Source of the DNA: Flavobacterium sp. CFS9
GTDB taxonomy: Bacteria > Bacteroidota > Bacteroidia > Flavobacteriales > Flavobacteriaceae
Reading direction: 5' to 3'
DNA: 64,000 nucleotides
Assembly (NCBI RefSeq): GCF_041154745.1
Contig: NZ_AP031573.1
Span: forward strand, 4,526,001 to 4,590,000
Shown one piece after another: positions 7,165 through 36,682 of this stretch. A program made the position numbers and the translations under genes. The notes below the pieces were generated by a model, which was not told where the DNA came from, made no database searches, and saw only the letters and a list, made by a program, of their open reading frames with translations. Position 1 is the stretch's first letter, and each line of letters begins with the position of its first letter.

Positions 7165-7180
7165 AAGCTTAATTAGGCTT

Positions 7181-7871: not shown

Positions 7872-8137
7872 TTCGCATAAAATTCGATTCAATGCGCTAT
7901 ACCTGCAGATACGGCATTGCATTACCATGAACTGCCGGTAAAACTGCACGTTTGATATTTCTGCCTGTGCGTTTGCGGCAGGCATTTCTGATGGATATTA
8001 CGATTGGATAAGGGCACAAAGAATCCCTGCCGTCAGAGCCAGATGATTATCCGTAAGCGGATATCATTTGGCCGGCAGCTGAATGATGGCATTAAATCTT
8101 TTGGATTTAAGTCTTTAGGATTTCTGCATTATCCAAT

Positions 8138-10201: not shown

Positions 10202-10282
10202 GATATATAATTTATAAGGTTAAAAAATTCGGCACCATTCTGCTGTCAGCGTCCAAGTGCCGATAAAAGGCAGTCCATTGGT

Positions 10283-10738: not shown

Positions 10739-10766
10739 CAGATAAGATTTTTGGCGGCTGAGCGGC

Positions 10767-11648: not shown

Positions 11649-11701
11649 ATTTTAAAATTAAGATTTTACATTTATCCTTTATTCCCATTATATGATCTGA
11701 A

Positions 11702-12118
11702 TTATTTCGCAGTTAGGCATTTCTCGCAGATTCCTTTGGCCAGAATCTGGATCTCATCGATCTGAAGGCTGCCCGAGAGGCTTTCCGGAAGCATGATCTC
11801 TTCGCGGCAGGTAGTCTGCCCGCACCTCCTGCAGTAGAAATGGAGATGCCTGTCATTATGCTCTTCCTCTTCGCATGAATCGGCGCATAAGCGGTACCTG
11901 GCCTGGCTGTCGTCCATAATCTTATGCACGAGCCCTTTTTCCAGAAATGTCTGAAGCGTCCTGTAGATGGTCACCTTATCGGCCTTGTGGAAATACTTCT
12001 CGATCTCCGCAAGCGATAATGCCGCCGTGAGGGTTTCCATATACTCGTAGATCAGAATGCGCATCGTGGTAGGCCGTATGCTTTTGCCGTTAAAGGCTTC
12101 TTCTGTCGTTTTCTTCAT
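11702..12118 (-). CDS. Fur-family transcriptional regulator
   Basis: 138 residues. N-terminal winged helix (about 10-85: TTMRILIYEYMETL, LSLAEIEKYF, KVTIYRTLQTFLEKGLVHKI) and C-terminal dimerisation/metal domain with an acid/His cluster (EEEEHNDRHLHFYC) and two Cys pairs (C-x2-C in YCRRC and CEKC) that would hold structural zinc. Layout is that of Fur/Zur; a zinc-sensing role is favoured by the neighbouring Zn-type ATPase and RND pump but is not proven. A 7-1-7 palindrome of the right shape for a Fur-family box lies upstream of the pump operon at 18594-18608. Confidence 0.88.
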   Translation of the reverse strand: MKKTTEEAFNGKSIRPTTMRILIYEYMETLTAALSLAEIEKYFHKADKVTIYRTLQTFLEKGLVHKIMDDSQARYRLCADSCEEEEHNDRHLHFYCRRCGQTTCREEIMLPESLSGSLQIDEIQILAKGICEKCLTAK

Positions 12119-12274
12119 ATAATTTTTACATTAAAAATAAAACCGGCAACAAGACCTATCTGTTAGGCAGTTACAGTAAATTTACGAAGCTTATTCTTAA
12201 TTTCCGCGTTCGCAGCTTACTTTTTTAGCAGGCAGATACTTCATAATCGGCCTTTATTGCCGGCATATTTTAAA

Positions 12275-12387
12275 TTAATGCAGGTTTTCCTGTCCGAGAC
12301 CATGAAATAGAGATTAAAGGGGGTGAATCCCTATTCCCTGGCTTAATCACAGGCAAACACTTACTGTCGGACAGGAATCTGCATTAA
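12275..12387. repeat. Long imperfect inverted repeat in the Fur-pump gap
   Basis: Left arm TTAATGCAGG...CCTGTCCGA (12275-12297) is the inverse of right arm TCGGACAGG...CTGCATTAA (12367-12387), with about 70 bases between. It lies between the adaptor stop (12402) and the Fur-family start (12118). It could be a small non-autonomous element with terminal inverted repeats or a large mRNA hairpin. No target duplication was seen. Confidence 0.5.
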
Positions 12388-12401
12388 ATCCTTAGTGTCT
12401 C

Positions 12402-13691: not shown

Positions 13692-13756
13692 GAATGCTCT
13701 ATATTTAGATTTATCCTGCGGAAGGGCTCTGCCGCTCCCGCAGGCTGTTATATTAT

Positions 13757-18073: not shown

Positions 18074-18245
18074 TATGCATTTAATTTTAACGTTTAGAAA
18101 ATAGTCTGTCCTCCCATGCAGAAATGGGGACAATGAAAAGCGCGCGCAGGCATCCCGAATGGATACGGAAAATCAAATGCATGCTGGGCAGGACCGTTAA
18201 GTCCTGACAAAAATCACTTCACGTGATAAGCGCAATCCGAAAAAT

Positions 18246-18569
18246 CTAAACGAAAAATTTAGGGGGCTGCCAGATGCTGCCCGTGTAGGTTGAATTTACC
18301 TGGCAGTCCTTAATGACAGTATTCTTGGAACTGATAGGCTGCTGGGGAAGATTAAGGTCCGGCATCTTAAAGCTGAACTTTATTACCGAAACGCTGCAGC
18401 AGGAGCACTGGCAGAATGGCGAGCAGTGGTCGTCATTATCACTGCTGTGGTTATGGGACAGCTCTTTCTGCGCAGTTTTAGAGGAAATACAGCTATTGTA
18501 TACGTCACTGCACGGAACCGCAAGCAGCCCTAGAATGTAAAGTAATAATATTGTTGTTTTCCATCTCAT
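18246..18569 (-). CDS. Small exported His/Cys-rich protein upstream of the RND pump
   Basis: 107 residues with an N-terminal hydrophobic signal (TTILLLYILGLLAVPCSD) and a dense metal-ligand patch: SHNHSSDNDDHCSPFCQCSCC. Resembles the small Bacteroidota family catalogued, I believe, as DUF6660, often placed directly before copper/heavy-metal RND genes. First gene of the pump operon; likely a periplasmic or membrane metal-binding accessory. Function not established. Confidence 0.75.
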   Translation of the reverse strand: MRWKTTILLLYILGLLAVPCSDVYNSCISSKTAQKELSHNHSSDNDDHCSPFCQCSCCSVSVIKFSFKMPDLNLPQQPISSKNTVIKDCQVNSTYTGSIWQPPKFFV

Positions 18570-18573
18570 GGGA

Positions 18574-18608
18574 CAAATGTAAAAAATAGTTTATGCAATC
18601 CGATTGCA
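18574..18608 (-). promoter_or_regulatory. Promoter and Fur-type 7-1-7 palindrome of the pump operon
   Basis: On the - strand a perfect Bacteroidota -7 box TACATTTG (18574-18581) stands only 4 bases before the ATG, so the transcript would be almost leaderless. Just upstream is the perfect palindrome TGCAATCCGATTGCA (18594-18608), a 7-1-7 inverted repeat, the usual geometry of Fur/Zur/PerR operators, positioned to overlap the -33 region and repress. The likely binder is the Fur-family regulator at 11702-12118. Confidence 0.5.
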
Positions 18609-18626
18609 AAGTGGCATCCTGCATTG

Positions 18627-18742
18627 TAAAATTAGAAACCTGCCCTCCGCAGTAAAGCGGGATTGCAGGCAGGCGGTTACTTCCTTCCTATTTTTATGCT
18701 ACGCAAAGTAACAACCTGATTTTGTAGACATTCTGAATTTTT
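18627..18742 (-). ncRNA. Possible short RNA or leader: conserved element, -7-like box and GC-rich hairpin
   Basis: Reading the - strand: AAAAATTCAGAATGTCTACA (from 18742) matches the element before the LtaS-like gene, then GTTACTTTGC (18703-18712) similar to a -7 box, then 30 bases later a hairpin with outer stem CCTGCC/GGCAGG (18639-18673) and inner CCGC/GCGG, followed by TTTCTAATTTT. Promoter-hairpin-T tract spacing would give an RNA of roughly 70 bases. Highly tentative. Confidence 0.25.
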
Positions 18743-18825
18743 GCGCGATCAGCTGAAAAAAAATGTTTTTTTTTCTCTGCATCCAATTAATGACGAAATA
18801 ACTGCGCAGGCCTCACATGCAGCAA

Positions 18826-19284
18826 TTATAGATGAAGCTTCATGCCTTCATGGGTCGGCATAAAGCCCAGGCTCTCGTAAAACTTCACAGCCTCAGGCCT
18901 TTTTTTGTCTGTGGTAAGCTGGACCAGATGTGCCCCGCGCTGTCTTGACCTCTCTATGGCCCACTCGAACATAAGCCTTCCGAATCCCTTTCCGCGGTCT
19001 TCCCTCCTTATCCTGACCGCCTCTATCTGCGCCCTTACTCCGCCCTGATAGGTTAGATACTGGATGAAGCTCAGCTGCATGGTTCCCACCAGATCTCCGG
19101 CCTCATTAGTCACGGCGATAAGTTCCTGCGAGGGATCGGCATCGATTTTCTCGAACGCCTTAATGTAGGCATGTGGCAAAGGAAGCTGGAAATCCTCCCT
19201 GCCCTGCCCAAGGGCATCATCAGAAAGAAGCCTGATGATTTCGGGCAGATCATCTGCTGCTGCAGTTCTAAAAATTAAATTCAT
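18826..19284 (-). CDS. GNAT-family N-acetyltransferase
   Basis: 152 residues with a complete GNAT fold. Acetyl-CoA loop in IRREDRGKGFGRLMFEWAIE (the R-x2-G-x-G/A pattern), preceded by the central strand QLSFIQYLTYQGGVRAQIEA and followed by GAHLVQLTTDKKRPEAVKFY and ESLGFMPTHEGMKL. The acceptor is unknown. Monocistronic by spacing. Confidence 0.92.
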   Translation of the reverse strand: MNLIFRTAAADDLPEIIRLLSDDALGQGREDFQLPLPHAYIKAFEKIDADPSQELIAVTNEAGDLVGTMQLSFIQYLTYQGGVRAQIEAVRIRREDRGKGFGRLMFEWAIERSRQRGAHLVQLTTDKKRPEAVKFYESLGFMPTHEGMKLHL

Positions 19285-19375
19285 ATCAATGTTTTTTGGG
19301 TATGCCGCTTTCTCCCTTTCATATTCCTTAAGCCATTTAGACTAGCACTTTAAAGAAAAGAGAACGATTTAAATT

Positions 19376-20875
19376 TTAAAATATGCTGTTATACTTTTCT
19401 ATCAGCTGGTTTCTGTCCATTTCACCAGCCATCCAATCCCTGACATCTTTCACGCGCTGCTTGACGTTGTTTTTTTTGATTTCCATTGCTTGGTCAAATT
19501 CATCCGCGTCGAAATCTGCCGTGCTGCCGAGTTCCGTAAAAAATATATGAAATGGTGTCCAGTCTTCATCGGTCAATATCTTATGCAGCGGTCTATGTGC
19601 AGTTTCACGCAATACGTCAAAATACAATCCATTAATTTTCCGCGCTGAAACTTCAACCTCCATGAAGGAAAATAGCCTTTGAAAGAAAAAGGACTCCCCT
19701 ATACTTATGCCCTTAGCATCTTCCAAGGTATACAATGAAGGACAGGAATACTCATCATTATCCAGATTATTATAATCTATAAAAGCGCAGATCTTGCCAG
19801 GAACGCATACCACATCTAGATGCTCATGAATGGCGTCAATTTTATTCTCATCGTAAAATATGGCAATGTTATCGGCGGCCGTTTTATTGTTCCATTCTGT
19901 TTCAAAAGCGAAAATTCCCTTGAAAAAAGGAACAGAACTCATCGGGCCTTCGCATATTCTGTCAATACCTTCAAGAGAATCTTTAAGTGTGGACGAACTT
20001 AATGTCGTTTTGATTTCAATTACGGCAATCACGGCTTCCTTTTTTACCACTACAAGATCATCTTCCCTAAAAACTGGAATATAATTGTGCTGGTCATAAA
20101 TTATGATATCAATCTGCTTGCTGCTACCCTCTATAAATCCTGTTGCGACGTGAAATTTTTTGGGCACAAATTTCCGCAGGACGGAAATGAAAAGCCTCTC
20201 CCTGTAATTTCCGACAGTCTGGCCGTGGCTGATGACATAATTGATACGCTCGCTCTGGCTTCTGATTTCATTTGAAATCGAAGAAAGATATCTTTTTTTA
20301 TTTTCTAGTGCGATTTCGTTAATGCCAAGCGCAATATATGTGCCTAATTTTAATTTAACATATTTAAATGTGCCCGCGGCCAAGCGAGATTTTATAATCC
20401 CTGAAGCCTGTAATTTAGACACTCCGATTTCGCTGACTAATAGATCAATGCAGCCATCAACCTTTAACCTTTTCTGGGAGGAGGAATGCATCGTATTGAT
20501 TACCTTGTGCCAGTTGTTTTTTATCATGCTCTGGAGCCTACCATACTTTTCATCGCTAAAAGTACACGTTCTGTCTACAATCACAAATGGATCGACCTGC
20601 TGTTTAAATTCGTCCATGTTATAAGTTACCAAGCCTCGTGCTTTTGTCTTTTCATCGTCACAGGTCCAATAAAACCTCACAGAATCTCCATCAATTGAAA
20701 TAATTTTGCCTGTCTGGGCTTCGCCGTAGTCGTCTTTATGATTTATTATCAAATGATGTTCCTGCTGTAGAAACACTAAGAATTCTTTTGTTGTCAATAT
20801 TATGTCCTTTAGGTTACTATTTAAAATTTTGTTCGCTATTAGTCCAGCAGAACCACAGGACACGATATCCTGCAA
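19376..20875 (-). CDS. Nuclease-like protein of unknown function (DUF6602-like core)
   Basis: About 499 residues if translated from the TTG at 20875; no ATG occurs until residue ~86, and another TTG at residue 27 is possible, so the start is uncertain. The middle part reads RERLFISVLRKFVPKKFHVA, then SSKQIDIIIYDQ, then VIAVIEIKTTL: the E...D...E-x-K order of PD-(D/E)xK nucleases, as in the DUF6602 group. N-terminal ~90 residues include a small beta-rich segment; C-terminal part is alpha-rich. Composition is more AT-rich than the metal genes beside it. Likely mobile defence or stress gene; role unproven. Confidence 0.6.
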   Translation of the reverse strand: MQDIVSCGSAGLIANKILNSNLKDIILTTKEFLVFLQQEHHLIINHKDDYGEAQTGKIISIDGDSVRFYWTCDDEKTKARGLVTYNMDEFKQQVDPFVIVDRTCTFSDEKYGRLQSMIKNNWHKVINTMHSSSQKRLKVDGCIDLLVSEIGVSKLQASGIIKSRLAAGTFKYVKLKLGTYIALGINEIALENKKRYLSSISNEIRSQSERINYVISHGQTVGNYRERLFISVLRKFVPKKFHVATGFIEGSSKQIDIIIYDQHNYIPVFREDDLVVVKKEAVIAVIEIKTTLSSSTLKDSLEGIDRICEGPMSSVPFFKGIFAFETEWNNKTAADNIAIFYDENKIDAIHEHLDVVCVPGKICAFIDYNNLDNDEYSCPSLYTLEDAKGISIGESFFFQRLFSFMEVEVSARKINGLYFDVLRETAHRPLHKILTDEDWTPFHIFFTELGSTADFDADEFDQAMEIKKNNVKQRVKDVRDWMAGEMDRNQLIEKYNSIF

Positions 20876-21066
20876 CTTAAGGCGAATTTAAGAAATTTTT
20901 CTTAGCATCTCTGCTGTCCCAGCCATATGGTGCCCGTACTTGACGTTTCAGACAATAAAGTGTGCATGAATCTTTTACATGTGGAAATCTAGCAATTTAC
21001 GGCACATTATTTGGTGCTTTTCTTGATAAAACATTAATTTACTGCTAACTAACTTATCTGAAAATT

Positions 21067-21456
21067 ATGAAAAAAACTTTATTTTCTCTTCTGGTATTCG
21101 CAATGTCTATAAGCGCATCCGCCCAGAGCCAGTCCGCTTCGAATGCAAATGCATTTCCCTGCATTGACACTGGATACAGGCTATACCCCACTAATAATAT
21201 GTGGACCTATATCAAACTCAACACCCGAAACGGACAGATGTGGCAGGTTCAGTGGGACACTGGAAAAAACAGGTTCGAGTCTCCCCTTTCGCTCAAGGCG
21301 CTTGCAGCACCCGATCAGGAAAAAAACAACAGATTTGTCCTCAGCCCCACCACCAATATATACAATTTCATTCTGCTGGACCAGATCGACGGACGCGTCT
21401 GGCAGGTGCAATGGTCAAGCAAACCCGAAGAGCGCGCCATTTTAGCCATAGAATAG
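21067..21456 (+). CDS. Small exported protein with two tandem WQVQW repeats
   Basis: 129 residues. Signal peptide MKKTLFSLLVFAMSISASAQ, then two related ~36-residue repeats: RLYPTNNMWTYIKLNTRNG-QMWQVQW and VLSPTTNIYNFILLDQIDG-RVWQVQW. Each looks like two beta-strands with an aromatic core. Small secreted proteins of this type are widespread in Flavobacteriia; no function known. Confidence 0.75.
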   Translation: MKKTLFSLLVFAMSISASAQSQSASNANAFPCIDTGYRLYPTNNMWTYIKLNTRNGQMWQVQWDTGKNRFESPLSLKALAAPDQEKNNRFVLSPTTNIYNFILLDQIDGRVWQVQWSSKPEERAILAIE

Positions 21457-21580
21457 AAAAGGCCGAAATAGCATTTTCCTTTATCGGTTCGCAGCATTAT
21501 TTTTTGCACTCTGATGCGGAACCGGCATTTACACTTTTGGATGGGCAAGACTGCATAAAGGCATGAAGTTAAATCTTTGC

Positions 21581-21628
21581 TATATTTGTTTTATGCCGGC
21601 TGATTTTGTTTAAAATGCCTTATATTTG
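21581..21628 (+). promoter_or_regulatory. Two perfect TATATTTG -7 boxes
   Basis: TATATTTG occurs at 21581-21588 and at 21621-21628, the second 39 bases before the ATG at 21667. Both match the Bacteroidota TAnnTTTG consensus exactly; a good -33 TTTG partner at 17-20 bases was not found. Confidence 0.4.
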
Positions 21629-21666
21629 GCCGGAACAAACAATAAAATCAGCATTTTCTCTTTAGC

Positions 21667-22029
21667 ATGAAGCATTTTAAAGGCATATTGATAATGGCGC
21701 TCCTTGCCATGCGGATGCTTTACGGCGTTGAAATCCACAGCGTCTCTTCCGTGCTTGCCGATTGCGCCGAAATGCAGAATATTTCAGGCAGGAAAGCCCA
21801 CCAGTGCGCCGTTGATGCGCCCCATAGCAAAAAGAAAATCCGCATAAACGCTTCTTCCCAAGACAAGAAAGAGAAGCATAAAACCGCTGCGCTTTTAAAA
21901 TCCCTAACAGAAAAATTTACTGATGACGCGCTTTCGCTTCCTCACAGCAAAAGCACCGCTTATTTTAAGCTGGACACTGCATTTGCAGACGCTTTAAAAA
22001 ACTCACTGCACAGACTCCATTTTTTCTAG
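21667..22029 (+). CDS. Small exported hypothetical protein
   Basis: 120 residues with an N-terminal hydrophobic segment (GILIMALLAMRMLYGVEI), then a Lys/Ser-rich, low-complexity middle (SKKKIRINASSQDKKEKHK) and a short amphipathic C-terminus. No family recognised. Supported by its own -7 boxes and codon use like its neighbours. Confidence 0.5.
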   Translation: MKHFKGILIMALLAMRMLYGVEIHSVSSVLADCAEMQNISGRKAHQCAVDAPHSKKKIRINASSQDKKEKHKTAALLKSLTEKFTDDALSLPHSKSTAYFKLDTAFADALKNSLHRLHFF

Positions 22030-22398
22030 ACTCAAAATTAAATTCCGAATTTACCTATTCGATGGCATAACTATCAATAGTCAGCTCAGCATAACGTAAA
22101 AGAAGGCCGTTTTTTATGTTCTCTGCTGCCATCTGCGATTGCCAGCCTGTATAACAGCGCGCTATCCAGATGCAAAACCAAACATAAAAAGTGACGGCTT
22201 ACGAGAAAAGCCCGTTTTTAACATTCGGCTTCAAGAGTCTGATATGCCCTGTAAAACTATGGCAGCCCGCACTCCCGCGGCGCTTTCCAATACAGCTGAA
22301 AACCTGTTTAAACCAATTAAAACCAGACCCGCCGACGGTCTGCAAATCACTATGGCTATTCTGTATTCAGACGGAATAATCATCGATCATTTAATGCA
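22030..22398 (+). other. Intergenic stretch without a convincing gene
   Basis: A frame of 87 codons (22139-22402) exists but has no family resemblance and overlaps the next start. No terminator or repeat was recognised. Confidence 0.4.
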
Positions 22399-23448
22399 AT
22401 GAAAAATTTAATTCTTTCTTTTATATCGCTTTTGGCAGTCCATAGCGCCCAGTCACAAAAAAACTCGCTTAAGAGATACCTCGAAAAACAGGATGCTTCC
22501 ATAACCGATACGGTCATCTGTTTGAAATCCTCGGATTCGGTCTGGGCTGATCTTCCTGTGACCCTAATCAGGGGGCGTGAAAAAGGTCCAACCCTTACCC
22601 TAGCCGCCGGAATCCGCGAAGGCGGATTTTCCGCCGCCGCTTCCCTGCTGCAGCTTCGCCGTGAGATAATGCCTGAAAAGCTCAAGGGAAACCTCATTAT
22701 TATTCCCGACGCTGATGTGCAGCGCTACAGCGGCCGCAGCTCCCAATCCGACAACATACGAATGTCCCATCTTTCCGATGCTTTTCCGGGCAGCGCCAAG
22801 GGAACCGCGGCAGAATTGATCGCCGATTTTATTTCGACAGCTGTCTTTGATGCCACTGATGTATTTCTGGAGCTGAACGGCTGCGATTCCGGCAGTGATC
22901 CGATAGCTTTTATGTGCTACTACGACAATGCGGAATTCATGCAGCAGACAATGCTGGCGTACCGCCTGAGTGAAGCAAGCGGGCTCGGCACCATCCTGAG
23001 CCATCCGTACCCGCTCTCATCAGGAGAGCCTTCAAAATGCGCCGTGAAGCAGGCGGTCAGGCTGGGAATTCCGTCATTGAGCATGACATTAGGCGGATAT
23101 GAAAAACAGGGATCCTCCAGCCAGCCATCGGCTGAAGAAGCGCTTTACAGGATTATGGCAGAATTGGAAATCTACAATAATGGCACAACAAAGCCTTCCC
23201 GCGCAAAGAAATTCAGGTATAACAGAAAGGCCTGCATAAAGGTTCCATTTCAGGGCATATTCTGCAGCTCCATTAAGCCAGGGGATAAAATCAAAGAAAG
23301 CCAGAAGATAGGCAATCTGACCGATATTTTCGGCAACAGGAAAAAAACTCTCAGAGCCCCCGAGTCGGGCACCGTACTTTACAAAACAGATGCAGATGCT
23401 GTAAATGCTGACGAAACTGTAATCTGCATCGGATACAGGATCCAATAG
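22399..23448 (+). CDS. Degenerate AstE/AspA-like (M14) exported protein
   Basis: 349 residues with a signal peptide (LILSFISLLAVHSAQS). The fold follows succinylglutamate desuccinylase/aspartoacylase: AAGIREGGFSAAASLLQLRR, LKGNLIIIPDADVQRYSGRS, DAFPG, DVFLELNGCDSG, and a C-terminal beta-hammerhead ending in FGNRKKTLRAPESGTVLY. The zinc ligands are missing: GIHGxE becomes GIREGG (His to Arg73, Glu to Gly76) and DLH becomes ELN (His to Asn160); the LNR...FPG arginine is also gone. It is probably a non-catalytic binding protein or uses different chemistry. Family assignment good, activity doubtful. Confidence 0.75.
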   Translation: MKNLILSFISLLAVHSAQSQKNSLKRYLEKQDASITDTVICLKSSDSVWADLPVTLIRGREKGPTLTLAAGIREGGFSAAASLLQLRREIMPEKLKGNLIIIPDADVQRYSGRSSQSDNIRMSHLSDAFPGSAKGTAAELIADFISTAVFDATDVFLELNGCDSGSDPIAFMCYYDNAEFMQQTMLAYRLSEASGLGTILSHPYPLSSGEPSKCAVKQAVRLGIPSLSMTLGGYEKQGSSSQPSAEEALYRIMAELEIYNNGTTKPSRAKKFRYNRKACIKVPFQGIFCSSIKPGDKIKESQKIGNLTDIFGNRKKTLRAPESGTVLYKTDADAVNADETVICIGYRIQ

Positions 23449-24835: not shown

Positions 24836-26218
24836 TCAGGCAATAATGGCAAGTGTGATATCATAGACAAGCGCTTTAAGCTCCTTATTACACAGCGATA
24901 AATCCCTGTCGGGCGGATTTCCATGATAAATGAGGTTTCTGGCTTTAATAAGCTGGCCAAATTCCACATCATAATCGTCCGGATCCAGATTGAGATATTT
25001 TATAAAACCCTCAAACTGATCGATAAGGCCGGTCTTTTTAATAAAGGATACTTTCTCAAAAGCTTTAGAATCAAATTCCTGTTTATCTGCGTCCGCGACT
25101 ATTTCACCGATTTCTTTTATCTTCTTTTTTATGAACCTGTTAATAGAGCCTTCTGATCCCGTAAATACATATTCTTCCTTTACAGTGAAAGCACTGCCGT
25201 CCAAGGGCTCATTTAAAAAATAATTCCTGAACTTTTCAACGATGTTGTAAAGGACCATGAAAGCTGAAATATCATCAAGGTGCTTTATCCTTAACAGTCT
25301 GGGAACAGCCTCCTGTATAAGCTCCCTGAAAGTTTGGAATTTCTCAAAATTTACCGAATCTGCAAAATCGTAAATATTCTGATATTTGTCCTTCAAATGA
25401 AATTCCTGCGAGGAATCAAAGTTATCGCCGGAAAGCTTAAAGACTTCCCTGGTGCCATAATTATCCCTATCATTCACCCTGAGCAGGGCATTGAAAAAAT
25501 CAATGTTCTTCTCCCAGTACAGGGACATCAGCAGGCATAAGTCTTCTCCGAGGGAAAGCAGATCCAGATCTTTTACTTTCTCGCTGTCATCCCTTAGAAC
25601 CAGCTGTGCATCTCTGGTTATTACAAAATCCTTTTTTGGTTCGCCCTGTTTATAGGAATGGCTTAATGACAGCATAAATTCGACAGGACCAAACCTGGTC
25701 CATCTGTTATGATTCCGTTCAATGAATTTGTCATCTGAATCATAAGTTCCAAGCTGGCCGTACTGGATATATCCTGTGAGATGGGAAAGGGCATTGTCTG
25801 CCAGGCTGAATCTTGCGGCAGCGGCATACCTTCCATTCTGGAAAAGACAGAAATTTCGAAGAACCAGTATGACGGATTTCTTGTCATGATCGAAATAATT
25901 AGTTTCATGAAAATCTATCAGAGAGCTTTCAGAAAACTCAAAAAACTCCGGGTTCACCCATTCATATGGCGATAATGCAGGATTTACCAAGTCCAGGATG
26001 CTGGTTCCTGCTTCTGCAAGTGCTCTGAATTTCTGGTACAGATGATCAGAGGGCTTATAATAAATAATCAGCTGCGCCTCTTCAGGTCTTCTCTGGTTAT
26101 AAATCAGTCTCGCATCAAACTGGGAATCTCCGCTTTCACCAGGAAAGCCGTCCAGCAGTTCTTTATGCTCTGACAGCTTTAGCAGTATGGGCACATCATT
26201 TTGAAAGTAGTCTTTCAT
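24836..26218 (-). CDS. Large hypothetical protein with C-terminal HEPN (R-x4-H) domain
   Basis: 460 residues, not otherwise recognised. The N-terminal ~260 residues are mixed alpha/beta (RNFCLFQNGRYAAAARFSL, RFGPVEFMLSLSHSY). The C-terminal ~190 residues are helical and end with the HEPN RNase signature R427-NLIY-H432 in KARNLIYHG, preceded by a helix pair (FMVLYNIVEKFRNYF). HEPN proteins with an R-x4-6-H motif are commonly metal-independent RNases in abortive infection. It stands alone beside nuclease-like and STAND genes, which supports a defence role. Activity is inferred. Confidence 0.6.
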   Translation of the reverse strand: MKDYFQNDVPILLKLSEHKELLDGFPGESGDSQFDARLIYNQRRPEEAQLIIYYKPSDHLYQKFRALAEAGTSILDLVNPALSPYEWVNPEFFEFSESSLIDFHETNYFDHDKKSVILVLRNFCLFQNGRYAAAARFSLADNALSHLTGYIQYGQLGTYDSDDKFIERNHNRWTRFGPVEFMLSLSHSYKQGEPKKDFVITRDAQLVLRDDSEKVKDLDLLSLGEDLCLLMSLYWEKNIDFFNALLRVNDRDNYGTREVFKLSGDNFDSSQEFHLKDKYQNIYDFADSVNFEKFQTFRELIQEAVPRLLRIKHLDDISAFMVLYNIVEKFRNYFLNEPLDGSAFTVKEEYVFTGSEGSINRFIKKKIKEIGEIVADADKQEFDSKAFEKVSFIKKTGLIDQFEGFIKYLNLDPDDYDVEFGQLIKARNLIYHGNPPDRDLSLCNKELKALVYDITLAIIA

Positions 26219-27966: not shown

Positions 27967-27998
27967 AAACTCAATCCAATTCCTGGATTGAGTTTTTT
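27967..27998 (+). terminator. Intrinsic terminator after the AraC/DHFR-like unit
   Basis: AAACTCAATCCA pairs perfectly with TGGATTGAGTTT around loop ATTCC, followed by a run of T. Confidence 0.85.
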
Positions 27999-28115: not shown

Positions 28116-29945
28116 ATGGCAGTCAAGGACTTCGACGACGAAAATCTTCCAAAAGTGAATCCAAATGAAAGTCTTGAAACTATTTCAAGTGTTTTGTTCA
28201 GGAAGCGGTTCCCTGTACAAAAATTTGAGATACGATCTGAAACGATGCGTGACAAAGGGATAGATTTTCATATCGAACTGAAAAAAGAATCTGCATCAGG
28301 AGGTAGCGTATACACCAATTACAGGTTTGCTGTCCAGCTGAAGGCGACAAATAAAATCAAACAGGGAACCGATGGAAGTTTCGGACTTCAGATCTCAACA
28401 TCCAATATAAGCTACCTGCTCAATAACGGCATGCCCGCCTACTATGTTTTTTATCACCATCCTTCAGCTTGTTTCTACTTCGAAAACGTCAAAAATATTC
28501 TGGATCAGATCAAGGGCAGAAATGGGAAATGGCAGCAAAAAGCAAAGCAGAAGATTTATTTCACCAAAATTCTTTCTGAACAGGCAGTGCAGGAAATCTA
28601 CGAGGAAACGTATGCAAGCGGAGTTCTTCTCAGAAGGATCAACAGCTACAGATTTCCGTCAAACAGCCCAAATTCCAGCAGCCTTCTCATTGATTCCGAC
28701 AACATAGTATACAGCGTATCGGAAAATATAGAATATATAGACAAGTTTGGCGCGGATCTTGTAAATGCACACCGTTTTGACACCGTAATTGAAATGGAGA
28801 AAAGGAGCTGGCCAAGAAACACAGCAACTCCCCGATTCTACCTTTTTTGCGGCATTGCCTATTTTCAGCGCGGGGATCTCTACAAGGCGATGGACCTTCT
28901 GAAAAGCGCCAAGAAATATTCCGACGAATTTGACCCGGAGGGTCGGGCGATAATCGAACATACTATACTCAATACCAGATATCTTTTGGACATAATATCC
29001 AAAGAGCAGTACGACCGGGCTGTAAAAAAGATCGGCCATCTGGAGGATTCAGGCTCCTTTTTCCAGATTGAGAATGCTTTTGAAGAATTGTCTTCCAATA
29101 GCGGAGAACCAGCTTCTTCAATACTGAAGTTCTACGAATCCATGCAGAAGGTTATTGAAAATGAAAAAAAAATTGGACTGCGAATCATTGCCTTCAATAA
29201 GATCATTGATGCCGAATCCAGCATCCTTTTCAGCGATCTGGCAAAGAATTCCGTCTACGTTGCGGGACGAGTCCAGAATCTTCTTCACACCACTGTCTTT
29301 AAGCAATGGCTTGAACTTGAAAAAATATTCCGCTGGCGTCTTAACAGCATAGTGGATTATGCCGAGAATTGCGGATATTTCATCTCGATCGGCATCTTGA
29401 CCCTGGCGGGCATAAAATGGGAATACCAGAAAGCGTTTCACCTTCATTATCTCTCATGCTGGAAATACAGAAGCTTTGATCTGCTCCAGCCTGTTGATCC
29501 GTCAGTGCTCGAGAAGCTAAGAAGGAACTGCGATCATCTCGACAAGCTTGCAGAAGCATTTGAACAGAATGAATACAGGGAAAACATGCTATGCTGCATG
29601 ATCCTTAAATATGAAATCCTGCAATTTTCCGGAAATGTGAATGCAGCCTGCGATGCAAAAGAAAAAATACTTGAAGTTATAGACGCATTTGAATTCGAGG
29701 GTTTGCGAAAAGAATATGAACCGATTTTCAATCAAGGAACGTCGCATGAAAACTTCGTTGCGAAATACACCTCACACATGAACAGAATTCAGGATCTTGC
29801 TGTGCAAGAGGGAATAGACTGCTACAGGATGCTTTCAAGAGAGGAGCTTGCTTTTAGGCCCCGCTGGTCCATCAGGGATTTTCCAGCATTTGATTTTTCG
29901 ATTATGCCCCATGAAAATGAGGGCGAAAAGGATATATTAAACTAA
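28116..29945 (+). CDS. DUF4365 nuclease-like protein with helical-repeat C-terminus
   Basis: 609 residues. Residues ~10-140 are a DUF4365-type restriction-endonuclease-like domain: RSETMRDKGIDFHIELKKE (metal-binding Asp), RFAVQLKATNKIKQG (Q-x-K), then SNISYLLNNGMPAYYVFYHH. The remaining ~450 residues are alpha-helical with TPR-like pairs (FYLFCGIAYFQRGDLYKAMD). DUF4365 proteins occur in defence islands. First of four consecutive + strand genes with nuclease-like signatures. Substrate recognition presumably lies in the helical repeats; activity inferred. Confidence 0.75.
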   Translation: MAVKDFDDENLPKVNPNESLETISSVLFRKRFPVQKFEIRSETMRDKGIDFHIELKKESASGGSVYTNYRFAVQLKATNKIKQGTDGSFGLQISTSNISYLLNNGMPAYYVFYHHPSACFYFENVKNILDQIKGRNGKWQQKAKQKIYFTKILSEQAVQEIYEETYASGVLLRRINSYRFPSNSPNSSSLLIDSDNIVYSVSENIEYIDKFGADLVNAHRFDTVIEMEKRSWPRNTATPRFYLFCGIAYFQRGDLYKAMDLLKSAKKYSDEFDPEGRAIIEHTILNTRYLLDIISKEQYDRAVKKIGHLEDSGSFFQIENAFEELSSNSGEPASSILKFYESMQKVIENEKKIGLRIIAFNKIIDAESSILFSDLAKNSVYVAGRVQNLLHTTVFKQWLELEKIFRWRLNSIVDYAENCGYFISIGILTLAGIKWEYQKAFHLHYLSCWKYRSFDLLQPVDPSVLEKLRRNCDHLDKLAEAFEQNEYRENMLCCMILKYEILQFSGNVNAACDAKEKILEVIDAFEFEGLRKEYEPIFNQGTSHENFVAKYTSHMNRIQDLAVQEGIDCYRMLSREELAFRPRWSIRDFPAFDFSIMPHENEGEKDILN

Positions 29946-30047
29946 CCTCATTACTGGGCACGCCATCCATCAAATCTTGCTGAAATAATTAAAAGAAAAA
30001 CTTGCTTTCCCCGTTCAAAATTCCATCATCAAAAAAAAATATTACAC

Positions 30048-31193
30048 ATGAAAACGCAGTCGGAAAATCAAATTTCATTTATAAATCAAAATATCTTTTT
30101 TAGGGAATTCACATTCAGCAAGAATGATTTCAAGGGGCTAAACAGCAAACAGCAGCTGGAGTTTGCCGACAATGTGGTTTGGATAGAGGACATTTTTTTT
30201 ATTTTCCAGATCAAGGAAAAGGAACTCGATGCAAGCGACGATAGAAAATTGTTCCAAAGCAAGATTTTGAATAAGGCGGTAAAACAGATAAAAGCCACCA
30301 CGAAATATCTCAGCGAATACTCAGATATCCACATAGAAAACGAGAAAGGGCATAAAATTAACATTGCCCAGGCCAAGGACAATCCAAGCAGGAAAATCAT
30401 AATCTATCAGGCAAAGGATTTTTCAGAACAACTGCGACAGATCAAGTTTTACGAAAGCACTGAAATTGGATTGATTCATCTATTTCATGAAGAGGATTAC
30501 ACATGGATCTGCAGACTGCTCCTAACACCTTGTGAAATCAATGAATATCTGTCCTTCAGGGAACGCCTGTTCCTGTTTGACAAAAGGGCATCTGCAGCCC
30601 TTCCCGAACAATATTTCCTTTCGCATTTTCTCGAGACGCCCGACGCTGACCATTTCAATGCAAAATACATCAATTCGCTATTGCATTTCGACCAGACAAC
30701 TTCAGAATTTGATATTTCGGGTATAATGGAAAACTTTGCAAAAAATATTAAAATGGCCAACTATGAAACCGAATATTATCCAATTTTGGCCGAACTTGCC
30801 CTGCTGAATAGGTTTGAGCTGGCCGCCTTCAAGCAGAAATACTCATTGTGTGTGCAGGAATCCGAAAACCAGGACTTTACGACTCCCTATAGAATGTACG
30901 TTCCAAGAACCGACTGCGCTTTTGTTTTTATTCCTCTGCACTCGAAAAATGCGGCTAATTGGGCAAATGCCCTGGACAATTATGCATTTGCCCTGAAGTA
31001 TGATTCCAAAGCCAGCAGATGCATAGGCGCTGTTGTGTTTAGAGATCCAAATGATAAGGAATATTTTCAGATTTTCTGGAATTACATCCATCATGAGTGG
31101 GTGTTTGACCAAGAACTTGAAGACCTATTGAATGACAATTATCTATTCAGGGCTAGCAGGGTCAGCAAAACTGACAATAGATACAGGAAATAG
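30048..31193 (+). CDS. Nuclease-like hypothetical protein, paralogue A
   Basis: 381 residues, no named family recognised. The N-terminal part reads LEFADNVVWIEDIFFIFQIK-EKE and then NKAVKQIKATTKYL, a D...Q-x-K pattern like PD-(D/E)xK nucleases (compare NERD-type domains). A middle block GLIHLFHEEDYTWICRLLLT...YLSFRERLF aligns with the same block of the protein at 31677-32966. The C-terminus (residues ~210-380) resembles the C-terminus of that paralogue only weakly. Starts 102 bases after the DUF4365 gene. Likely part of one defence unit. Confidence 0.6.
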   Translation: MKTQSENQISFINQNIFFREFTFSKNDFKGLNSKQQLEFADNVVWIEDIFFIFQIKEKELDASDDRKLFQSKILNKAVKQIKATTKYLSEYSDIHIENEKGHKINIAQAKDNPSRKIIIYQAKDFSEQLRQIKFYESTEIGLIHLFHEEDYTWICRLLLTPCEINEYLSFRERLFLFDKRASAALPEQYFLSHFLETPDADHFNAKYINSLLHFDQTTSEFDISGIMENFAKNIKMANYETEYYPILAELALLNRFELAAFKQKYSLCVQESENQDFTTPYRMYVPRTDCAFVFIPLHSKNAANWANALDNYAFALKYDSKASRCIGAVVFRDPNDKEYFQIFWNYIHHEWVFDQELEDLLNDNYLFRASRVSKTDNRYRK

Positions 31194-31254
31194 TGACAAT
31201 GTCCAAAACAGAAAGTCCAAGCAACTATAACCAGAAAATAAATGGAAAATATAA

Positions 31255-31446
31255 CTAGTCTTCAAGGGAAGCTTCGATTAATTTGGCTACTTCCTCTACC
31301 GTTTTTTTCGCTGTGAACATGGAGCAATTGCTTAAATGAAGTTCTGCATTCCTTCCTTTGTTAGTTCCGTTAATAGTGACAATAGAATTGACATTAATAA
31401 AGTGCGGCACGTTTTCTTCATCCAGCACAAATATAAATCCTTTCAT
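31255..31446 (-). CDS. FlbD-like small protein on the opposite strand
   Basis: 63 residues: MKGFIFVLDEENVPHFINVN, then SIVTINGTNKGRNAELHLSN and KKTVEEVAKLIEASLED. The pattern (strand, 'VN...I..I' turn, strand, 'TVEEV..LI' helix) resembles the ~60-residue FlbD family (PF06289), although no flagellar genes are present. It sits antisense between the two nuclease-like paralogues. May be an independent housekeeping gene or a small modulator. Confidence 0.55.
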   Translation of the reverse strand: MKGFIFVLDEENVPHFINVNSIVTINGTNKGRNAELHLSNCSMFTAKKTVEEVAKLIEASLED

Positions 31447-31676
31447 AACTGCTTGATTTTAAGTTTATCAAATATACAAATTAATTAAAACTTCGGTTAG
31501 AAGACCCACGAAGTACAACGGTATAGTTTCTATATACTTCCCAAATATCAGTTAGCTTGTTGATTGGAATTACTTTAATTATCAGAATTACCATGAGCAT
31601 AGGAATAGCCCGCGCAAACTTAAATTCAAATCCATTAATTTTTTTACTAAATTTCGTTCTCGAAAAGCAAAAAATT

Positions 31677-32966
31677 ATGATAATTGAAGACAAAGGCAAA
31701 TTAGGTGAAGATTTTGTAAACACTCTTGCTTACAGATCGTTCTTGAAGTACTGGTGTTTTCCTGGACCAAAATATGAAAATGGCGATAAAAAGGAAATCT
31801 GCGACCTCTTGATTATTTTCAATTCGGTGCTAATCGTCATCTCAGTTAAGAACTACGAATTTAAGGGAAATCATTTCAGGTATTTCAACAACACTATTGA
31901 AAAGGCTGTAAAACAGATCCATGGTGCCTGCCGTACTTTATTCGGAGCTGCAGAAGTGCAGATCAAGCATCCCGACAGGGAAATGGAGATTTTTCCAAGA
32001 GAACAAATCACCAAAGTATTTCGAATTGTAATCAATTTGGGAGAAGGAGTAAAATTTTATCCCTTTAACCATTCCACGAAAAACGATGATTATGTAACCT
32101 TATTTGATAAAGATTCCTTCGAAACTATTATCAGCCAGCTTGATACGCTTCCTGATTTTATAGATTATCTTGAAAAAAGGGAGAAACTATTTAAGGGGAG
32201 GATCACCATAATCATGCCAGGCGACGAGTACGACTTTCCTCTCGAAACGCAGAAGGAATTTTTTGCGCTCCAAAAGCAGCTGACACAAAACTACATTCTG
32301 ATCTCGGGTACGGAAAAGGATCTTCTTTCCCACTTCTTCAAAAATGCTAGAAATTTCCCGCCGTTTCTCAACGATGATTCTAACGGCATCTTTCTGCAAA
32401 TCGATGGTGACTGGGATTCGTTTTCCGATATTCAGCAAGTAAAAAATAAGGCAGAAGCAGATAAAGCCAGCTATTTCATCGACGATTTTGTGCAGAATGA
32501 AATCCTAAAAAATGAATATCTTCAAAATCTGACACCAATGCGGTTAAACCTTGCCAAAGCAATGCTGTCATTCGACAGGCTTACCAGACGATCCATCGCC
32601 AAAAGCTATTTCGAGTTCCACAACCGTTACAAAGACGTTTCTGGACTAAATTTCGGAAGGCGGTTCGGCGATTATGACGGCGTGGGTGTGCTGTTCACTT
32701 TTTACACGGACCAGATGGATATGGAAATGATAAATACCCTAAATACTCTGGCAATAGAAAGTGTTAATCTATTTACAGGATATAAAAGCAAATCCTTAAT
32801 CTTAATATCATCCAACCGAAGCCATAGATTTTTGTTCGCCCATATAGACAAAATTGAGAAGTATGAGCCAGATCATGAGGAAATGATCAGGCAGGATGTT
32901 AAAAGAATGGGATGGTTTACCAAACATACCTTGTTCCAAGGTAGCGAAAACGAGTTTCCAGAATAA
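31677..32966 (+). CDS. Nuclease-like hypothetical protein, paralogue B
   Basis: 429 residues from the ATG at 31677; the frame is open back to 31557 but that extension is hydrophobic and atypical. The N-terminal domain reads KGKLGEDFVNTLAYRSFLKY, KEICDLLIIFNSVLIVISVK and EKAVKQIHGACRTLFGA: E...D...S-x-K in a restriction-endonuclease-like arrangement. The block YVTLFDKDSFETIISQLDTL...YLEKREKLF aligns with paralogue A. The central region RRSIAKSYFEFHNRYKDVSG is helical. Follows an in-line gene order with the STAND NTPase 112 bases downstream. Confidence 0.6.
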   Translation: MIIEDKGKLGEDFVNTLAYRSFLKYWCFPGPKYENGDKKEICDLLIIFNSVLIVISVKNYEFKGNHFRYFNNTIEKAVKQIHGACRTLFGAAEVQIKHPDREMEIFPREQITKVFRIVINLGEGVKFYPFNHSTKNDDYVTLFDKDSFETIISQLDTLPDFIDYLEKREKLFKGRITIIMPGDEYDFPLETQKEFFALQKQLTQNYILISGTEKDLLSHFFKNARNFPPFLNDDSNGIFLQIDGDWDSFSDIQQVKNKAEADKASYFIDDFVQNEILKNEYLQNLTPMRLNLAKAMLSFDRLTRRSIAKSYFEFHNRYKDVSGLNFGRRFGDYDGVGVLFTFYTDQMDMEMINTLNTLAIESVNLFTGYKSKSLILISSNRSHRFLFAHIDKIEKYEPDHEEMIRQDVKRMGWFTKHTLFQGSENEFPE

Positions 32967-33078
32967 ATAAGAGTTGAAATTGCCATCTTTATTTCTTCCA
33001 AAATAATTGTTGATCCATTGAATAAAAAATGGTTTGGATAACTATTTGTCCTTTTTGAAAATATTACACTTAAAAAAT

Positions 33079-36000
33079 ATGAAATACGCCTTTATCGGAT
33101 ACTCTTACCAATGGCTTGCCTCATCACTGCTGCTAGCTAAAATGGATGCTGAAAGAAATATAGATGAAATGGAAATCGAGGCAGCCATTCAAAACAATTT
33201 TGATGATGTAAAAATACGTTGCGGTCTTGAGCATTATTTTTTTCAAATCAAGGATATGGATGCAATGACCCTTGATAAACTGGCCGTTTCCGGAAATGAG
33301 ATTTCAATAAAAGGAAAATCCCATAAACTCTCGGGTCACAGCAATATCATCATTTTTAAGGAGATCGACATTATACCAGATAGCGAAGTACTTGGCATGC
33401 CAGCCTATAATTTTTCAGGAGTATTTATAATCTCCATGAGCCGTAAAGAAATGATAGAAAAAATTCATGAGCTATATGCACTGGATGAAAACAGGAAGAA
33501 TATCATTGAGTACTTTTTTAATGGCCGACTTGACCAGAGAATATTAAAAATATCAAGAGAACAGCTCCCATCAATAGCACTCTTCAGTACTGAGCTTCTG
33601 GAAACGACCGTCAATGTGGCTCGTGAGCGTCTTTTAGTGGAAAATATCCTGCTTATCGAAGGAAAACCTGGAGTCGGAAAAAGCCATTTTGTCAATACAA
33701 TTACAGATCAGTACCCCAATAATATCCTATACCGTTTTTGGACTTCAAGTCAGGACAAAGACTATGACAAACGGTTGAAATACGAGAACTTCCTAAGTGA
33801 ACTATCTAAAAATATCTTCGGTGATTATCGCGAACGCGATGAAAAGGTGATCCTAAACCATCTTATAACCAATAATAAAACAATAATAATAGATGGACTG
33901 GATCATGTCGAGAACTACAACAGAAGTGACTTAGAAAAATTTATCACCTTCATTGATAAACTGCACAAAGGCACTAAAACCATCGTTCTCAGCCGTCCTT
34001 TGCAGCGAGTGTTATCCTGGGAAAAATATACTTTAGGAAATTGGAATCTGGAGCAGACGGCCAAAGTGCTAAATGAACTGTACCACATTTCGAAATACAG
34101 CATTGCAAGCAAAATTTTCACTATCACCCAGGGATATCCCATTTTGGTGAAATACGTTGCAGAGCATTACAAAAAAGAAAAAAAACTACCTCAGTATGAT
34201 CAGTTAGAAAGCATTGATAATTATTACCAGCAGATAATTACCAATGAAAAAGGCAAACAGGCACTGGCTCTGTTCCTCTGTTCCCACACCTATACCATGC
34301 ATTCTGAAATTGATTTTTTTCTTGACTCAGATCTAGGTGATATCGTAAAAGAATTTATAGAGGAACACCCCTATCTATTTGAAATCCGTCTCAACCGTGT
34401 AGCGCTCTTTCATGATAGTCTTGTGACCTATCTCAGAAAATTAAATATAAACTACTCAAAGACTCTTGAGAAGGTAAGCAACAAGGTTTACACTTCAATA
34501 ATGGCAGGCGAAAAAAGGTTCCTGTCGAGATTAAATTTTTACGAACTTTCTGAAACAAAGAAAAACAACATCACTAAAAAATACATTTCAATCGCACAGT
34601 TCCGTCAACTTATGGAAAATGTCATTGATTTTGAAGCCATCCAATCCTTTTATTTTCAGATTAGGGAAAATCTCTGCTCGATAGATCCTGAAGCACTGGA
34701 AATCATAGACTTTTATGACCTATCTCTGATTATTAACATGGTTCAAAGGGACCATATCTCCACACAGGACCAGGTTATATTTACCTACCTCAAAGCTTTG
34801 ATCCATAATGGATATACAGAAGAAGATATTACAAGCGACGGCTATCTATTTGCAATGCTGTATTACATCACGACCAATAACGCATCGTTAATTTTAAATC
34901 TTATGGCTTCTCAGCATTACGACACCAGGTATTTTTATCGTGAACTTGATAAGGACATCAGAGAAGAGAAATCATTTTTCAGCAAACATGCCAAAGCACT
35001 TACAGCACCAGCAATCACTGAGCTTTTGGCTAAAAGTGATGAATTCGATTTACAGGATGTAATTCCTTATATCCTGCAAAATCTGTATATACACCAGATA
35101 AAGCAAGGCAAGTATAAAAATCTATTCAGTGCAATTGATCACTATATGAATGGGAATGCTACCCTTGGCAATAAAATTCTGCAGGACTTTATTGCTTTAT
35201 ATCATATAGAAAGTTTTAAAGCGCTCTGGATGCTGAAAGCCACAAAAAAATATCTGTATGCTTATGGATTACATCCGCAGCATAATGATTACAAGTGCCT
35301 TACACTTGAATATTTTATCAAAAAAAACAAATACAGGGGAAGTTTCGCCCTGAGGGATATGGTGCATAATTACATAAGGCTGTCCCTGCATGAGGAAAGA
35401 AAAATCAACATAGCTGAAATCAGCCATTTCTGGTGCAAGTATTACAACCGTAAAGACTACTCAATGTACAGTCTTGACGTAACCTTAAAAATATTTCAAG
35501 ACAAAGATTTTATAAATCCATTGCGTTCCATAGAACTCATTAATCAAATACAGAATATTTCAGAAAAAGGTTACCGTGAGCTGCTAGCTTCATACATTAA
35601 ACAGCATCCGGCGGACATAATCCATTTTATAAATGAAAATTTTGATGCTGCTGATCTCTCCATTTCATGGCTGGATCTGCCCACTGACTATATTAATCTT
35701 TTGCCAAACAATATCTTTCAACGCGCGCTCAATGGAATTTTACGAACTCACAGTTATGATAAGAAGATTGATTACATAGATGTTTCAAATGTACTGGGTT
35801 CGTCTCGTGAAAACGAACTAAAGTCAGTTATGGCAATGTTTGGATACAGGATCAACGTTGAAGAAGAATCACCTGAGCTAAAAATACTGAAAAACAAAGC
35901 TGTTGATTTTGTGACTTTTCCGCAGGACAAGAACTCTGCAAGAATGAAGTCAGACAGCGCTTCACGTTTCAAAGAGGGAATCCTGAAACAGGAAGATAAA

Positions 36001-36318
36001 GCACTAATTAAGGAAAAAGCCCTGAAGTCGTATGATGTCGCTGGCTTTGCTAATCAAAATTATTCCGCACTTGCAGATTCGGAAATTTTTAAACTTTTTT
36101 CTAAAGAAGATATAAGAAAGAACATAAAACTTATTCTCTATAATGCCATGATTGGCAAAATGGAAAGTTTATCGTCTTTTCATCTTTTGTATATCTATCC
36201 TGGAAATCTACTGAAAATCATCGATGATAATGAAATAGAAATAGATTATCCACTTTTTTTTAAAAGCTTTACTGTCTTTTTAGAACTTTCTTTACTTAAT
36301 TCAGCATTTCAGGATTAA
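33079..36318 (+). CDS. STAND NTPase with N-terminal nuclease-like domain (Avs-like)
   Basis: 1079 residues from the ATG at 33079 (a TTG at 33034 would add 15). Residues 1-150: GYSYQWLASSLLLAKM, EIEAAIQNNFDDVKI, YFFQIKDMD, an E...DD...Q-x-K order like the Cap4/DUF4297 endonuclease. Residues ~175-480: STAND ATPase with Walker A GKPGVGKS (195-202), Walker B IIIDGLDHV (Asp272) and a sensor SRPLQRVL. Residues ~480-1079 are helical repeats, the usual sensor part. Same layout as antiviral STAND (Avs) proteins, which recognise a phage protein and activate the effector. Homology to a specific Avs type cannot be told here. Very AT-rich. Confidence 0.72.
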   Translation: MKYAFIGYSYQWLASSLLLAKMDAERNIDEMEIEAAIQNNFDDVKIRCGLEHYFFQIKDMDAMTLDKLAVSGNEISIKGKSHKLSGHSNIIIFKEIDIIPDSEVLGMPAYNFSGVFIISMSRKEMIEKIHELYALDENRKNIIEYFFNGRLDQRILKISREQLPSIALFSTELLETTVNVARERLLVENILLIEGKPGVGKSHFVNTITDQYPNNILYRFWTSSQDKDYDKRLKYENFLSELSKNIFGDYRERDEKVILNHLITNNKTIIIDGLDHVENYNRSDLEKFITFIDKLHKGTKTIVLSRPLQRVLSWEKYTLGNWNLEQTAKVLNELYHISKYSIASKIFTITQGYPILVKYVAEHYKKEKKLPQYDQLESIDNYYQQIITNEKGKQALALFLCSHTYTMHSEIDFFLDSDLGDIVKEFIEEHPYLFEIRLNRVALFHDSLVTYLRKLNINYSKTLEKVSNKVYTSIMAGEKRFLSRLNFYELSETKKNNITKKYISIAQFRQLMENVIDFEAIQSFYFQIRENLCSIDPEALEIIDFYDLSLIINMVQRDHISTQDQVIFTYLKALIHNGYTEEDITSDGYLFAMLYYITTNNASLILNLMASQHYDTRYFYRELDKDIREEKSFFSKHAKALTAPAITELLAKSDEFDLQDVIPYILQNLYIHQIKQGKYKNLFSAIDHYMNGNATLGNKILQDFIALYHIESFKALWMLKATKKYLYAYGLHPQHNDYKCLTLEYFIKKNKYRGSFALRDMVHNYIRLSLHEERKINIAEISHFWCKYYNRKDYSMYSLDVTLKIFQDKDFINPLRSIELINQIQNISEKGYRELLASYIKQHPADIIHFINENFDAADLSISWLDLPTDYINLLPNNIFQRALNGILRTHSYDKKIDYIDVSNVLGSSRENELKSVMAMFGYRINVEEESPELKILKNKAVDFVTFPQDKNSARMKSDSASRFKEGILKQEDKALIKEKALKSYDVAGFANQNYSALADSEIFKLFSKEDIRKNIKLILYNAMIGKMESLSSFHLLYIYPGNLLKIIDDNEIEIDYPLFFKSFTVFLELSLLNSAFQD

Positions 36319-36554
36319 ACCAATATTTTAAAAAATAACCAAACAAGAATTTTCCCATGACAACAAATCCCCTTAAAACATTATTGAAAGGGATTAACTT
36401 TGTTCCACAAAACCAAAATCCTAGACAGTAATTCACAGAGCCAAACAAAGACACTTTTGCCTTAAATACGGCAATCTTTTCAAATTCGCCCTAAAATATG
36501 TAAATTTATATATTAGCTAAATCGATAAATCAATTGAGTTTTTTATATTTTTTG

Positions 36555-36630
36555 TATCAATCCCCAACGGTACATCTAAACCAAAATTAGAAAGCCAATG
36601 AAAGACAGCGTCTACCTGTAGTACGCCAAT
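36555..36630 (-). repeat. Degenerate repeat copy 1 (gene remnant)
   Basis: On the - strand it can be read as VFHWLSNFGLDVPLGI. A related, more decayed copy at about 47430-47505 reads TLHWLYKFGLNALLGLI. About three quarters of bases agree over the first 45. Looks like the tail of a lost gene family or mobile element; identity unknown. Confidence 0.5.
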
Positions 36631-36682
36631 CGCTTCAAATCTTCCAAAAAATTTATTGTAATTTGTCCCGTAGAGGTCACTT

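Follow-up and report, generated by a model that had tools for sequence, protein, structure and literature searches.

Do four adjacent genes with nuclease-like signatures encode one defence machine, or has a mobile stretch of DNA gathered several independent ones? This question is raised by a locus of Flavobacterium sp. CFS9 (GCF_041154745.1, contig NZ_AP031573.1), which lies at positions 28116-36318 of the window, the whole stretch of 64,000 nucleotides that was analysed (4,526,001-4,590,000 of the contig). A preliminary description of this DNA had proposed a single new defence system of four adjacent plus-strand genes, with gaps of 102, about 480 and 112 bases and a small minus-strand gene in the second gap. 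The layout was borne out: the four open reading frames (ORFs) are all on the plus strand, the gaps in locus order are 102, 483 and 112 bases, and a minus-strand ORF of 63 amino acids (aa) occupies 31255-31446. The single system did not survive comparison with other genomes. Very probably, each of the four is a defence module in its own right and a mobile block has collected them; they would not be subunits of a single system.

Gene 1 (28116-29945, 609 aa) combines an N-terminal DUF4365 domain at aa ~23-158 (GIDFHIE...VQLK) with a C-terminal region of ~450 aa. Gene A (30048-31193, 381 aa) encodes a PD-(D/E)XK-like domain with the motif E38-x2-D41...Q54-x-K56. Gene B (31677-32966, 429 aa) encodes a NERD-like PD-(D/E)XK domain, with E11, E40-x2-D43...S56-x-K58 and Q80, and a family-specific C-terminal half; its start is most likely the ATG at 31677, with the mechanically assigned TTG upstream at 31557. 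The fourth gene (33079-36318, 1079 aa from the ATG) encodes a STAND nucleoside triphosphatase (NTPase) with an N-terminal E-x-E...FDD...QIK motif, Walker A (GKPGVGKSH) and Walker B (IIIDGLDH) sequences, and a long C-terminal region. A TTG at 33034 would shorten the gap between B and STAND to 67 bases; the ATG at 33079 is most likely the true start, because it corresponds to the start listed first in each of the two independent relatives. The motifs quoted in the preliminary description are present in all four genes and are conserved in the aligned relatives of A, B and STAND.

Do the four genes occur together?

The test of co-occurrence covered 29 genomes or records that contain a relative of at least one of A, B and STAND, with a threshold of E 0.001. 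Direct searches for STAND took in 16 of these, all plasmids and, by a less sensitive scan, viral contigs. With this coverage, two or more of the four genes were found together only in Flavobacterium defluvii and in none of the 28 other genomes or records, and the four-gene system was rejected on this count. STAND was present in two of the 16 examined (F. defluvii and Flavobacterium sp. Leaf82), and DUF4365 in two of the 29 (F. defluvii and genome G331, where it lies on a different contig from the B-family gene). Of the 29, 12 were matched by the A profile and 27 by the B profile. In each of the 11 with an A match outside F. defluvii, both profiles hit one and the same gene, and this holds for the three plasmid records with A that were searched. 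The preliminary description had itself named the lack of a conserved neighbourhood in related genomes as an observation that would refute its proposal; no conserved neighbourhood was found in the sampled genomes, and the two relatives of STAND have other neighbours.

F. defluvii DSM 17963 carries the same four genes, with each protein differing at one residue or none. They lie in a block of at least 33 kb that it has in common with the window (3500-36679) and that holds metal-resistance and defence genes. DNA identity is 99% over 3500-23400 and the two copies are collinear up to 36679; the right part was compared as proteins and at the junction, and 3500 marks the start of the compared stretch, the left end lying beyond its scope. 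The likeness breaks off at one point, which is followed by a terminator-like hairpin. The F. defluvii copy is one recent shared block and not conservation, and it is not independent evidence because it is inside one near-identical block. The 99% identity, the near-absence of residue differences and the single break point thus led to its rejection as support for one system.

An arrangement with the STAND protein as sensor and DUF4365, A and B as distinct nuclease effectors under its control is therefore highly improbable on co-occurrence. It would account for the common strand, the tight spacing, the nuclease signatures and the intact state of the genes in two species. It is opposed, beyond the count of 0 of 28, by the nuclease-like motif that STAND itself carries, by the minus-strand ORF between A and B, and by a terminator-like hairpin ahead of gene 1 (27967-27995, plus strand).

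The surroundings of the STAND relatives bear on smaller units. With a contig scan suited to close relatives, STAND was detected in F. defluvii and Leaf82 (74% identity); a profile search, run on 395 genomes of the order, gave two, its own genome and G128 (47% identity). There were no relatives in plasmids or IMG/VR. Neither Leaf82 (G414) nor G128 had a match to A, B or DUF4365 at E 0.001. In Leaf82, STAND sits between proteins that look like restriction endonucleases (REases), with a Gabija-like pair upstream; in G128, the genes after it comprise different REase-looking ones and one that resembles a methylase. These neighbours were called by motif and have few family matches. A constant nuclease partner of STAND was considered and rejected, as the downstream REase-looking neighbours in the two genomes share no similarity. 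The Leaf82 locus (L009, 319-16727) encodes large REase-looking proteins of 761, 746 and 1259 aa, none with a nuclease family match above cut-off.

A two-gene unit, either B with STAND or A with B and the rest as bystanders, is improbable. The gap between B and STAND is only 67-112 bases, and A and B, as homologues, could hetero-oligomerise. Both holders of STAND outside the block, however, lack A and B at the threshold used, and the A and B profiles converge on a single gene in the three plasmid records and in the A-matched holders of B.

Several points weigh against reading the four genes as separate modules. They are together and intact in two species, and the gap between B and STAND is short, because of which a fortuitous or recent joint function is conceivable. 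The neighbourhood test for STAND is weak because it has only two independent relatives. In the draft genome G331, the B-family gene sits where a contig ends and the DUF4365 gene is on another contig; adjacency of the two is unlikely, though the contig end leaves some room for it. The defence roles of all four genes are candidate roles, assigned from sequence. With these points counted, separate modules are still the reading we favour, and each of the four proteins would work alone, joining a sensing part to a nuclease-like part.

Genes A and B as one nuclease-like family

The preliminary description had called A and B paralogues, and profile comparison agrees. Their homology extends over the N-terminal ~180 residues (hhalign 98.6%); with the domains trimmed the value is 98.7%, where 20 column shuffles reach no more than 0.2%. 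The A profile picks up B-family genes and the B profile picks up three plasmid A genes; the latter did not list the A gene of its own genome or of F. defluvii. The STAND and DUF4365 domains had no profile relation to A, to B or to each other (probabilities at most 0.2%, shuffles 0.1-1.0%, with DUF4365 as a single sequence), and therefore the nuclease signatures of the locus come from three separate families. A common family for all four N-termini was rejected, since only A and B were related by profile comparison.

The active-site residues are well conserved within each group. In A, the motif residues E38, D41, Q54 and K56 are kept in four of four aligned rows. In B, E40, D43, S56 and K58 are kept in six of six rows of one alignment (A2) and nine of nine of another (A4), which together represent 14 distinct proteins; E11 is absent only from one N-terminally short member of these 14. 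PD-(D/E)XK enzymes have an acidic residue or Q two positions before the lysine. A fits this rule with Q54 in all four rows, whereas B has S56 in all 14. Five further relatives of B, judged by eye from unaligned translations, have S-V-K, S-V-N (without the lysine), F-D-R (twice) and E-V-K at this site, variants which indicate that the B family spans a canonical catalytic centre and degenerate ones. Both F-D-R relatives (L048, L046) end in a SEC-C-like motif. Two SEC-C members of the B family match E2-type models of PADLOC, only over their last ~30 residues.

Known families describe A and B incompletely. NERD proteins have an E-D...x-K layout. B resembles NERD (PF08378) in this layout and over profile positions 1-89, and differs in a score below the cut-off (E=0.024; 15.6 bits against 22.1) and in the serine at the catalytic acidic position. 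A has no match to NERD and no Pfam match above cut-off. B also matches phrog_18195 (E=2.6e-7, best over aa 10-86), which is catalogued as a phage protein family with its function unknown; A does not match it at E 1. PADLOC gave no match for A, B, the Vibrio relative of A or a B-family protein from locus L035. No study naming the A/B family was found in literature titles and abstract openings, among the matches listed.

A structural model of B was predicted by AlphaFold2 from alignment A4 (B and eight relatives from viral contigs). Its elements are helix 9-20, strand 27-29, strand 44-48, strand 51-58, helix 66-90 and strand 93-97. The predicted order is thus the helix-strand-strand-strand-helix-strand core of PD-(D/E)XK nucleases, with D43 entering the second strand and K58 ending the third. 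By ten-residue blocks, the predicted local distance difference test (pLDDT) score is 79-83 over 41-60, 85 over 111-120 and 84-85 over 141-170; the first helix and the one at 66-90 score 56-70. Foldseek returned 470 matches at E 10. Among the best 50 of the 470, the fold class of the first 20 was judged from their titles and was PD-(D/E)XK in 19, including the R2 endonuclease domain, McrBC, BspD6I, Hjc, a Cas4-like protein, HerA-DUF and BstEII. The exception, at rank 11, was Get3; pyrophosphatases and other proteins appear further down. Several of the alignments are long and poor, with a root-mean-square deviation above 10. A probably shares the PD-(D/E)XK fold by its homology to B.

B, and perhaps A, might instead be an inactive nuclease fold that serves as a DNA-binding or regulatory protein. 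This would explain why serine takes the place of D, E or Q before x-K in all 14 aligned proteins, and it suits the F-D-R of the two SEC-C-like relatives and the S-V-N without a lysine. We regard it as rather unlikely, as E40, D43 and K58 are invariant in the aligned set and E11 is missing only from its one short member, A keeps a Q-x-K of the same form as the Q-L-K of gene 1, and one distant relative has the canonical E-V-K. In an active B, where serine replaces the usual acidic residue, the metal ligand would need to come from E40 or E11; otherwise, the domain may bind DNA without cutting it.

Members of the family are lone genes, which are spread over Bacteroidota, Proteobacteria and Cyanobacteria and occur on plasmids, prophage contigs and P4-type satellites. 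Relatives of A were found in four plasmid records (Vibrio, Synechocystis, Rhizobium; three neighbourhoods were read) and in one of 247 Bacteroidota genomes, which is its own, with none in IMG/VR. Relatives of B were found in three of 196 genomes of the order and 11 of 395 of the phylum (its own in both counts), in 28 plasmid records and in nine viral contigs. As a single query, B had no relatives in IMG/VR, and the L035 protein had none in GenBank phages.

The neighbourhoods of B relatives were read in part, and gene names in unannotated loci are a reading of the translations. On plasmids (seven of 28 read), an integrase is adjacent in three and AbiH in one. On genomes of the phylum (seven of the ten other than its own, together with G172; G293, G353 and G534 were left out), neighbours comprise AbiE-type pairs at two loci and, at one each, an integrase with HsdM nearby, a Res-like gene and a PD-(D/E)XK-like protein. 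In G172 (L004), the arrangement is retron-like: a reverse-transcriptase-like ORF (284 aa) and a helix-turn-helix ORF immediately precede the B-family gene, which could be the effector. On viral contigs (seven of nine read, four of them only as ORFs of at least 200 aa), relatives lie in a lambdoid replication region, near SIR2-HerA and Septu-like genes, near an Mrr-like nuclease, and near a P2-type gpA with a Septu-like pair.

At the DNA level, the L035 gene has matches in 37 of 5426 Escherichia coli genomes, 21 of these only over 69 bases and on plasmids. Four of the 16 chromosomal places were read. Three are beside psu/delta of P4-type satellites, one of these with the B-family gene also directly after an integrase, and the fourth is beside an integrase. 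Two of the three psu/delta places match only 19% of the query DNA, so their family membership is judged from that stretch and from gene length. The int-psu locus has been described as a defence hotspot (PMC9122126), and the available part of that source does not name the A/B family. The E. coli genes share this hotspot setting; the locus in the window differs in not being on a P4-type satellite.

We tentatively propose, at somewhat under an even chance, that A and B are members of an anti-phage family, so far undescribed and acting as single genes, with a NERD-like PD-(D/E)XK domain, the motif E-x2-D...(S/Q/E)-x-K and variable C-terminal halves; its serine members would cut or hold phage DNA by a rearranged site. 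On the favoured reading of separate modules, A and B would be single-gene nucleases with recognition set by the C-terminal halves. The counterweights to that reading are that the model of B has a mean pLDDT of only 60.6, that none of its Foldseek matches reaches E 0.001, and that defence neighbours are not universal: none was seen in the other three of the seven plasmid neighbourhoods, in the single E. coli plasmid place read or, at least not obviously, in two genome neighbourhoods, and nothing was noticed near the B relative in three viral contigs.

The STAND and DUF4365 proteins

Gene 1 matches DUF4365 (PF14280) at 55 bits against a cut-off of 24.3. Its aa 28-160 also match the PADLOC model for the REase of prokaryotic Argonaute (pAgo) systems (32.7 bits; the match ends at position 138 of 429), and its N-terminal 175 aa match the solved DREN-APAZ structure 9jsb over aa 14-126 (E=0.008, or 0.036 with the whole protein as query). 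It therefore has the DUF4365 nuclease domain in common with DREN, the DUF4365-APAZ protein that accompanies a short pAgo in SPARDA. It differs from DREN in its C-terminal region, which has no family match above cut-off; APAZ was found in gene 1 neither by Pfam nor by PADLOC, and no Argonaute or pAgo was matched among the genes scanned (eight proteins with Pfam and five with PADLOC). The protein has no relatives in IMG/VR. Gene 1 may be a sensor-coupled DUF4365 nuclease, acting like the DREN nuclease with another sensor.

Avs (AVAST) proteins combine a central STAND NTPase, an N-terminal nuclease and a long C-terminal region in a single gene. The STAND protein of the window is likewise a single gene with a central STAND NTPase, an N-terminal nuclease-like motif and a long C-terminal region. 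NPHP3_N of Pfam matches it at 27.0 bits (cut-off 24.8), with the other Pfam STAND and NACHT models below cut-off. The Walker residues and the N-terminal E-x-E...FDD...QIK (D42, D43, Q56, K58) are invariant in three of three homologues. Its STAND nature, as described beforehand, is thus upheld. A match to a known Avs type was not found: none of the PADLOC Avs models match it, the only PADLOC matches being weak ones to MkoA and mad8 over the P-loop region, and its N-terminal domain has no Pfam match at E 1. A profile search of solved structures gave only two weak matches, both to the P-loop region. Because the AlphaFold2 model, built from two sequences, was unusable (pLDDT 35.9), the N-terminus is regarded as nuclease-like from motif conservation. 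Most likely, the C-terminal region would sense a phage product, the NTPase would assemble, and the putative N-terminal DD...QxK nuclease would be turned on, as in Avs. STAND proteins with nuclease N-termini have been reported in the P4 hotspot, in the part of PMC9122126 available.

The nuclease-like signatures of the preliminary description have consequently fared unequally. They stand for DUF4365 by its score, for B by its fold model and for A by homology to B, and at the STAND N-terminus they amount to the motif.

The mobile block and its meaning

The right end of the block is an 18-base sequence (36662-36679, plus strand), which occurs once in the genome of CFS9 and twice in F. defluvii, 43 kb apart. 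The non-coding stretch 36460-36679, which ends in this motif, recurs (L015 ~1500-1740, L016 ~1500-1640) in F. defluvii (two exact motif copies) and in Leaf82 (two mismatches), and the sequence beyond the motif differs at each recurrence. The junction sequence could mark a site of integration or be an element not yet recognised. Rfam gave no match over 18000-48000, and an RNA element at the right junction was not found. Window positions 18000-40000 had no relatives among plasmids by megablast. The guanine-cytosine content is 50% in 1-18000, where the metal-resistance genes lie, versus 36-42% for the defence genes. Terminator-like hairpins are frequent in the region (16 found versus 6.1 expected). 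Matches to the Bacteroidota promoter consensus number eight versus 4.0 expected, with none just upstream of the four genes, and sigma-70 sites number 29 versus 27.9 expected.

The block holds a further defence candidate, a PD-(D/E)XK protein of the DUF6602 family (19376-20875, minus strand, 499 aa; PF20247 at 83 bits with a cut-off of 27; PADLOC PD_DExK at 96.8 bits), with strong PD-(D/E)XK and NucC-like matches. Another DUF6602 gene is found ~4 kb away from the homologue of A in Vibrio. HEPN domains have an R-x4-6-H motif, and a 460-aa protein at 24836-26218 (minus strand) has a resembling RNLIYHG stretch, with no Pfam or PADLOC match. Outside the block, at 47887-53252 (plus strand), a 1396-aa RHS-repeat-like protein is followed by a leucine-rich-repeat-like protein; by eye, they are perhaps a polymorphic toxin and its partner.

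Taken as a whole, the locus is a defence island of an ordinary kind, though a rich one, carried by a mobile block. It cautions that tight gene spacing in defence islands need not mean one machine, and that a near-identical second copy in another species can mimic conservation though it is one shared block. What emerges besides is the A/B family, defined by sequence, widespread and apparently unstudied, some members of which occupy recognised defence hotspots on E. coli satellites. Should the family prove active, the serine variants would help to show which residues a PD-(D/E)XK nuclease can spare.

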